A stretch of DNA of 64,000 nucleotides from Blattabacterium cuenoti (lineage in GTDB: Bacteria > Bacteroidota > Bacteroidia > Flavobacteriales > Blattabacteriaceae). The translations under genes were made by a program, and so were the position numbers. Location: contig NZ_CP059187.1 in assembly GCF_014251375.1 (NCBI RefSeq), positions 524,078 to 588,077 on the forward strand. Direction: 5' to 3'. A model generated the notes under the pieces. The model saw only the letters and a program-made list of their open reading frames with translations, was not told where the DNA came from and did not search any database. Positions 1 to 1,434 of the stretch are shown here, piece after piece; the stretch's first letter is position 1, and every line of letters starts with the position of its first letter.

Positions 1-378
1 ATTTCAATAATAATAACAAGAAGAAGAAAGACTTAGACAACAAAAAGAAAAAAGATTTCAATAATAATAACAAGAAGAAGAAAGACTTAGACAACAAAAA
101 GAAAAAAGATTTCAATAATAATAACAAGAAGAAGAAAGACTTAGACAACAAAAAGAAAAAAGATTTCAATAATAATAACAAGAAGAAGAAAGACTTAGAC
201 AACAAAAAGAAAAAAGATTTCAATAATAATAACAAGAAGAAGAAAGACTTAGACAACAAAAAGAAAAAAGATTTCAATAATAATAACAAGAAGAAGAAAG
301 ACTTAGACAACAAAAAGAAAAAAGATTTCAATAATAATAACAAGAAGAAGAAAGACTTAGACAACAAAAAGAAAAAAG
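1..378 (+). repeat. 54-bp tandem repeat, seven perfect copies
   Basis: Identical 54-bp units begin at 1, 55, 109, 163, 217, 271 and 325, and the array ends at 378, where the sequence becomes ATTAAG. I saw no mismatch between copies. The unit is a multiple of three, so copy-number change keeps the reading frame. The array may continue left of the window, so seven is a minimum. Confidence 0.97.
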
Positions 379-383
379 ATTAA
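1..383 (+). CDS. C-terminal end of a repeat-tailed protein (gene starts left of the window)
   Basis: The frame beginning at base 3 stays open through the whole tandem repeat and ends at the TAA at 381-383, so this is the 3' end of a gene that begins before base 1. Each 54-bp unit encodes the 18 residues FNNNNKKKKDLDNKKKKD, a very basic, hydrophilic, low-complexity peptide made of two similar halves (N-run/K-run/D). No folded domain is visible. rluD starts 43 bp downstream on the same strand. In many Flavobacteriia a PASTA-domain protein gene lies just upstream of rluD, so this could be its C-terminal tail; that is inference, since no PASTA sequence lies in the window. The opposite strand is also open in one frame, but it lacks an ATG and is less convincing. 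Confidence 0.6.
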   Translation, partial: FNNNNKKKKDLDNKKKKDFNNNNKKKKDLDNKKKKDFNNNNKKKKDLDNKKKKDFNNNNKKKKDLDNKKKKDFNNNNKKKKDLDNKKKKDFNNNNKKKKDLDNKKKKDFNNNNKKKKDLDNKKKKD

Positions 384-426: not shown

Positions 427-1434
427 ATGCCTATATTCAAATTCCTAGCAGATAAAGATCAAAAACCTATTCGTATTGACAAATTTTTGATACAAGCAAT
501 CCCAAATATTAGCAGGAATCAAATTCAAAAATCTACTAGACTAGGAAAAATATCAGTGAATGAACGTATCATAAAAAAAAATAATTATAAAATCAAACCT
601 TTAGATTCTATAATTATAGAAACTATCCCTACATCCATTTTTTTCTTAGATGAAGAATACAAAAATATTATAGAAGAAAAAATTCCTCTTGATATTCTTC
701 ATGAAGACAAAGATGTTTTAGTTGTAAATAAACCTGCAGGTATGGTAGTACATCCAGGATTCGGACACGAAAAAGGAACATTAATTCATGGAATTAAATA
801 TCATTTAAAAAAAAATTCTAATCAAAATAGATTTCCTCCTAGATTAGGGTTAATTCATAGAATAGATAAAGATACTTCAGGATTACTTCTTTTAGCAAAA
901 AATGAACATTCTCAAAAATGGTTATTACAACAATTTTTTCATAAAACTATTAAAAGAAAATATATTGCTTTAGTATGGGGGGATTTACAAAAAAAAGAGG
1001 GGAGTATAACTGGATTTATAGGAAGAGATCCTAAAAATAGAAAAAGAATGATTCTATTTCAAAATCCTTTCCCTTACAAAGGGAAATATTCAATAACTCA
1101 TTATAAAATCCTGGAAAGATACCCGAATATAACATATATTTCTTGTAATATAGAAACAGGAAAAACACATCAAATAAGAGCCCATTTCAAATATTTAGGA
1201 CATCCTTTATTCAATGATTCTACTTATGGGGGGGATCAAATTCTTATGAAGAAAAAACTATCTAAAAAAAATATTGAATTTTTTAATATGTGTTTAAAAA
1301 TTTTAAAAAGACAAGCATTACATGCTATTTCTCTTTCTTTTATCCATCCAAGAAATAAGAGAAAATATAATTTTACATGTCCAATACCTGAAGATTTTAA
1401 AAATGTTTTACTAAAATGCAGAGATAAATTTTAA
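427..1434 (+). CDS. rluD: RluA/RluD-family 23S rRNA pseudouridine synthase
   Basis: Isomerises specific uridines in 23S rRNA to pseudouridine during ribosome assembly. An N-terminal S4 RNA-binding domain (about residues 15-60) is followed by the catalytic domain, with the family signature HRIDKDTSGLLLLAKN starting near residue 144; the aspartate at about 147 is the catalytic residue. The C-terminal part has the expected GKTHQIRAH motif. At 335 aa it is full length for RluD. The ATG at 427 follows an A-rich leader with no Shine-Dalgarno sequence, normal for Bacteroidota. It faces mgtE tail to tail. RluD is the best fit among the RluA-type enzymes, but the exact target uridines cannot be read from sequence. 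Confidence 0.9.
   Translation: MPIFKFLADKDQKPIRIDKFLIQAIPNISRNQIQKSTRLGKISVNERIIKKNNYKIKPLDSIIIETIPTSIFFLDEEYKNIIEEKIPLDILHEDKDVLVVNKPAGMVVHPGFGHEKGTLIHGIKYHLKKNSNQNRFPPRLGLIHRIDKDTSGLLLLAKNEHSQKWLLQQFFHKTIKRKYIALVWGDLQKKEGSITGFIGRDPKNRKRMILFQNPFPYKGKYSITHYKILERYPNITYISCNIETGKTHQIRAHFKYLGHPLFNDSTYGGDQILMKKKLSKKNIEFFNMCLKILKRQALHAISLSFIHPRNKRKYNFTCPIPEDFKNVLLKCRDKF

Follow-up and report, generated by a model that had tools for sequence, protein, structure and literature searches.

Why should a shrinking symbiont genome carry seven perfect copies of one 54-bp unit inside a gene, and what is conserved in the protein tail that they encode? The window that raises this question is a stretch of 64,000 nucleotides (G000:C1 524078-588077) of a Blattabacterium genome of 639,840 bp in total (G000). 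Sequence comparison identified Blattabacterium cuenoti EUPOLsin, ESCALves, and AMAZOsp as named relatives, with EUPOLsin (G026) and the genome G037 nearest to the species of the window. Blattabacterium is the endosymbiont of the cockroach fat body, where it lives intracellularly and is maternally inherited, and the 49 genomes of the genus compared here are all about 0.5-0.64 Mb. Endosymbiont genomes are usually described as repeat-poor.

TRF placed the array at positions 1-381 of the window, with a period of 54 bp, 7.1 copies, 100% match, and 0 indels. A base-by-base shift check gave the same result, with 327 of 327 bases matching the base 54 further on. Across the array, only frame 3 is open, as frames 1 and 2 contain 7 and 21 stops, respectively. 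A non-coding array is ruled out by this reading frame, the stops in the other frames, and the gene upstream. The original prediction, which described seven perfect in-frame repeats ending in a stop just before rluD, was thus confirmed and was correctly placed (Table 1); 43 bp separate the stop codon from the start of rluD. The unit carries a charge of +5 per 18 aa.

Table 1. Features at the left edge of the window and other repeat loci (positions without a genome or locus prefix are those of the window)
Feature	Position	Strand	Basis
Perfect 54-bp tandem array, coding (FNNNNKKKKDLDNKKKKD)x7, C-terminal part of the PASTA protein's tail	1..380	+	TRF, translation
In-frame units of the 54-bp array	3-56, 57-110, 111-164, 165-218, 219-272, 273-326, 327-380	+	translation
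TAA stop codon of the PASTA-domain protein	381..383	+	translation
rluD-like 23S rRNA pseudouridine synthase (PF00849 + S4), conserved downstream neighbour	427..1434	+	domain matches, genus-wide synteny
46-N gap	G000:C1 524032-524077		
Start of the PASTA open reading frame	L001:5038	+	
DnaB C-terminal array, 84 bp x 5, in frame, 10-N gap inside (L127)	G000:C1 489606-490036		
Array in the N-terminal region of Rho, 36 bp x 8, unit NSHSQDRLRNPS (L097)	G000:C1 127389-127682		
OmpA-like linker array, 54 bp x 4 (L157)			
Penicillin-binding protein 1A C terminus, (KELKTDDNIN)x22	G009:C1 357466-358137		
Ribosomal protein L23 C terminus, 15-residue unit x9	G009:C1 382701-383111		
Single N, then second copy of PASTA core end (G021)	L092:3110		
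Partial Rho match	G014:C1 110876-111169		

A 46-N gap immediately precedes the first base of the window. To the left of this gap, on the same strand, an open reading frame encodes a hydrophobic helix at its N terminus, matches PASTA three times, and continues into a perfect 24-bp array of 6.6 copies that encodes (NNKKKDLD)n. The 24-bp and 54-bp units agree at 40 of 44 nt and are read in the same frame, and the two arrays therefore look like one composite tail. When the 24-mer pattern was searched against its own genome, it was found at 13 places, every one inside the PASTA gene. Taken at its printed length (46), the gap throws its two flanks out of frame, and a true gap of 2 mod 3 would join them in frame; we took the printed length as the assembler's estimate. 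The 7.1 copies of 54 bp and 6.6 copies of 24 bp are those assembled on either side of the gap and may not be the total. With units of at least 9 bp in one open reading frame and periods (54 and 24) divisible by three, the locus is an intragenic in-frame minisatellite, or amino-acid tandem repeat (aaTR), given continuity across the gap, which we infer. The original prediction had proposed to extend the sequence leftwards in search of a PASTA or other domain, and PASTA domains were indeed found upstream of the repeats in the same gene. No stop or frameshift that would refute it was found on this side, apart from the unsized gap.

The PF03793 (PASTA) profile matched the protein in three stretches (E=1.4e-23, 83 bits against a cut-off of 23.2), which identifies it as a PASTA-domain protein, and a weak sequence match to the PknB PASTA structures 3m9g, 3py9, and 2kui was obtained. 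It is not a PASTA Ser/Thr kinase (PknB/Stk1, NF033483), as only model positions 338-562 match (77.6 bits against a cut-off of 450) and the gene has no kinase domain. The TolA-like periplasmic spacers, defined by a membrane anchor, a long charged spacer, and a folded C-terminal partner-binding domain, were also rejected as its class: the N-terminal hydrophobic helix and the charged tail are present, but the protein ends with the repeats and lacks a C-terminal partner-binding domain. Judging from its sequence, it is a small envelope protein, predicted to be periplasmic, in which a membrane helix at the N terminus is followed by three PASTA domains and then by a hydrophilic C-terminal tail of low complexity. 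AlphaFold returned the 126-aa array as one long helix, with a mean pLDDT of 96 in the best of five models and about 50 in two of them. This helix could mean an ordered rod. We do not rely on it because of these two models, because structure prediction is often over-confident about helices in sequences that are repetitive and charged, and because the units of several other species contain Pro or Gly; a helix conserved across the genus is rejected on the last ground. The PASTA ortholog modelled with 3 sequences had a mean pLDDT of 47 and was confident only in the membrane helix and the first PASTA domain.

An ortholog of the PASTA gene lies between ddl (opposite strand) and rluD in 48 of the 49 Blattabacterium genomes, and rluD was found with ddl at all 49 loci. 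The gene has been lost in steps: in G029 (L076) and G015 (L077), the PASTA match is limited to the first part of the core, and G015 still has a very long repeat tail, whereas in G023 (L096) the gene is deleted, with ~108 bp left between ddl and rluD. Across the order, an ortholog was found in 270 of 296 Flavobacteriales genomes, with rluD adjoining it in most of those sampled. These kinase-less PASTA proteins beside rluD resemble the Blattabacterium gene in their orthologous core and rluD neighbour. In the free-living Flavobacteriales (19 read), they differ by the absence of a long perfect array, and some have a conserved K/P/T-rich tail, which in the free-living family f6 ends in KPKAKKVVVE or similar. 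Inspection by eye of 20 Flavobacteriales (these 19 and one reduced symbiont) revealed no long perfect array. By this comparison, the PASTA core and its rluD neighbour are old, and a low-complexity tail was already present in some relatives. The long arrays seem to have arisen within Blattabacterium, because core and neighbour are shared with the order but no long perfect array was seen in the sampled relatives.

Within Blattabacterium, TRF detected a tail array (score of at least 100) in 27 of the 48 species with the gene. Their best periods range from 12 to 63 bp, and all 27 are multiples of three (p=1.3e-13 against an expectation of 1/3). The units include (KNEEKIP)n, (KKQTEEKDF)n, (KNEDV)n, (KKDLKNE)n, (EEKKG)n, (EEKKP)n, (STKKEIETD)n, and (GNTKNKTQ)n, and 15-residue units are present 21 times in both G009 and G015. 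G042 has the unit IEEKEIDKK. The 14 species with at least four copies have 14 unit sequences, of which only EEKKG and EEKKP are obviously alike. On a Ddl+RluD tree, these long arrays require 12 parsimony changes, compared to 12.3 for shuffled labels. The long arrays thus show no phylogenetic clustering, and as their presence does not follow the species tree, arrays would be gained and lost fast. The sisters G016 and G017, 94% identical in Ddl+RluD, carry (KNEDV)n and (KKDLKNE)n, respectively, whereas G021 carries (KNEEKIP)n and G045, 96% identical to it in Ddl+RluD, has no array. In one large clade, several short tails contain 2-4 copies of a common IQIEEKDSKKQTEK-like segment, apparently a seed from which longer arrays would grow. 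Tail length across the genus ranges from 8 to at least 374 aa, and no C-terminal motif shared among the tails of the genus was found. Seven loci have N runs in or at the array, so that their copy numbers are unreliable. The rate and direction of change are read from species comparison, with one genome per species; at this level, the recent expansion proposed in the original prediction is supported, and gene conversion is also possible. The accompanying statement that endosymbiont genomes rarely keep such arrays was not supported, given that 27 of 48 species of this genus have a PASTA tail array and that further arrays occur in dnaB, rho, ompA-like, PBP1A, and L23 genes.

What the tails have in common is better seen in their composition. 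Counting distinct variants only, among the copies of imperfect arrays, 59 nonsynonymous variants, 18 synonymous variants, and 0 stops were counted relative to the consensus unit. The composition-weighted neutral expectation is 55.6, 14.1, and 7.2, respectively (p=0.24 for synonymous variants, p=5e-4 for stops), under a simple mutation model applied to 77 variants only and omitting G013, where two frames are open after its gap. These near-neutral counts with zero stops suggest that the amino-acid identity of the tail units is close to unconstrained and that stops are avoided. Hydrophobic residues account for 19% of the tails (median) vs 45% of the core, and A exceeds T in 46 of 46 tails. The tails of 23 species carry a net positive charge and those of 22 a net negative one, which rejects a conserved basic charge across the genus; the conserved property of the tail is its hydrophilic composition. 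The tail had been described as strongly basic, which is true of the G000 unit but not of the locus. For the same reason, binding of wall, nucleic acid, or membranes through charge, also suggested at that time, is unlikely to be a conserved function.

Similar arrays occur elsewhere in these genomes. Strong tandem arrays were found at four loci of G000, each in frame inside a gene (PASTA tail, DnaB, Rho, and OmpA-like protein; Table 1), with the PASTA tail scoring highest, just above dnaB (762 vs 760). This genome has only two N runs, both within arrays. In all four genomes scanned (G000, G017, G009, and G015 in part), the highest score went to the array in the PASTA tail, and the few repeats with a period not divisible by three have no convincing gene over them. 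The DnaB array is present in this species alone among the 30 genus members examined. In-frame arrays in the N-terminal part of Rho are found in several species, with other units such as GNENR in EUPOLsin and a 25-residue unit in G042 (L098, L099, L101). The OmpA-like protein of G037 (L160) has at least 23 copies of a 60-bp unit in its linker, and that of G004 (L182) has 81-bp duplications of a whole Cys-containing thrombospondin-type-3-like repeat. Further arrays form the C termini of penicillin-binding protein 1A and ribosomal protein L23 in G009. In G014, unlike the other 48 genomes, the Rho match is limited to the last 98 residues in a 433-aa frame, possibly due to a frameshift or an assembly error in this otherwise universal gene.

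We consider it probable that the PASTA tail is an in-frame minisatellite hotspot in a tolerant protein region, where slippage or unequal recombination would generate repeats that are then filtered by frame and solubility. The sequences themselves display the minisatellites of such a hotspot, with periods of 12-63 bp that are always multiples of three and units that mostly differ between species. Short A/G-rich, codon-periodic stretches of the ancestral tail would seed duplication by replication slippage, and RecA-dependent unequal recombination would then amplify and homogenise the copies, leading to the perfect identity seen in G000. In the species of the window, the 24-bp array is probably the earlier one, and the 54-bp higher-order unit would have derived from it and been the latest to expand. 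Selection would remove stops, frameshifts, and hydrophobic sequence while hardly seeing which hydrophilic residues occur, and drift in the bottlenecked symbiont would fix the resulting tails. The product may be a spacer that follows the PASTA stalk and is flexible or, in part, helical. Mutation itself could account for some of the multiple-of-three rule, since seeds such as AAGAAGAAA are already 3-periodic. Neutral expansion is supported as one option, as the original prediction had listed it.

Loss of RecA or mismatch repair is ruled out as the cause of the arrays because each of the 49 genomes has both RecA and MutS. Two UvrD-family helicases were found in 46 genomes, and one is missing in G006, G014, and G037. 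Loss of a UvrD-like helicase (PF00580) was rejected as well, as none of these three genomes has a PASTA tail array, although G037 has the very long ompA-like array. In Escherichia coli tolA, repeat contraction is RecA-dependent and mutS has no effect (PMC3477136).

The array could in principle have been inflated or invented by short reads mis-stacked around a low-complexity stretch. The window begins at a gap inside the array, the only other N run of G000 also lies within an array, and in G021 the end of the PASTA core occurs a second time after a single N, as if overlapping contigs had been abutted inside the array, so that the faulty join repeats upstream coding sequence. Arrays at the same tail position are nevertheless present in gap-free chromosomes such as that of G017 (632,490 bp, no N; 21 bp x 14.6), and the arrays of many species have differing units that are all in frame. 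An assembly artefact, which the original prediction had named as its refutation, is thus very improbable. Even slightly less credible is a phase-variable contingency locus or antigenic variation, in which the protein would be switched on and off or its surface altered for the host. Rapid repeat change in an envelope protein would fit this, but phase variation requires a repeat change that shifts the frame, and with no non-triplet period among the 27 arrays a change in copy number cannot do so. Moreover, the predicted location of the protein is the periplasm, not an exposed site, and the symbiont is intracellular and maternally inherited.

A more serious competitor, though still an unlikely one, is a selected periplasmic tether, that is, a TolA- or TonB-like spacer reaching from the PASTA stalk at the inner membrane to the wall or outer membrane, with a repeat number tuned by selection to the symbiont envelope of each host. 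The lack of stops among the 77 copy variants, the 27 in-frame periods, and the hydrophilic composition kept in all species are consistent with such a role, as are the K/P/T-rich tail conserved in family f6 and the long repeat tail that remains in G015 after the loss of most of its PASTA core. In E. coli, tolA repeat number alters stress tolerance (PMC3477136). Against a tether stand the range of tail lengths given above, the lack of a C-terminal motif common to the genus, the neutral appearance of amino-acid variation, and the absence of the gene in G023. We give a similarly low probability to the bolder proposal that selection maintains the PASTA tail as a hypermutable regulator of length in the symbiont envelope, with a spacer of suitable length re-evolved from new sequence in each host lineage; if true, nature would have replicated at this locus an experiment in which disorder and length, not sequence, are selected.

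An in-frame minisatellite hotspot of this kind has close precedents. In the ant endosymbiont Blochmannia, tolA contains 4-6.5 units of 81-102 bp, all multiples of three, which differ in length and sequence between species (PMC4389277). Both systems have a species-specific in-frame array in an inner-membrane-anchored periplasmic protein (predicted in Blattabacterium) of an obligate insect endosymbiont, but the protein, the phylum, and the position in the protein are different. Blattabacterium further differs in its 48 species with mostly unrelated units of 12-63 bp, its close sisters with unrelated units, and one loss of the gene. E. coli tolA likewise has in-frame repeats in a charged periplasmic spacer (PMC3477136); fast RecA-dependent copy change is a property of the E. 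coli gene, where copy number affects function, whereas in Blattabacterium the unit itself is replaced between species. The aaTRs of Borg elements are perfect, recent, independently arising, A-rich on the coding strand, and mostly intrinsically disordered, and include a K/E polyampholyte class and a conserved aaTR hotspot (PMC9879509). Perfect, recent, independent, A-rich repeats and a hotspot are shared with the PASTA tail. Borgs differ in being archaeal extrachromosomal elements with pervasive repeats and inferred strong selection, while copy variation in Blattabacterium looks neutral at the amino-acid level. A literature search found nothing specific on repeats in Blattabacterium or on the PASTA protein in Bacteroidetes. 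By analogy with the close precedents of Blochmannia tolA and Borg aaTRs, the PASTA locus would work like them, and it is unusually well sampled.

About a dozen apparently independent repeat births have thus taken place in one gene over the host radiation, with RecA and MutS intact. Because related species carry a different repeat or none, the locus serves as a natural record of the speed of repeat turnover in a shrinking genome. It is also a warning that errors in assemblies, annotations, and ortholog-length studies of these genomes can arise at sites that are predictable. The locus would also allow the birth, homogenisation, and loss of disordered tails under drift to be measured, and whether their length is selected.
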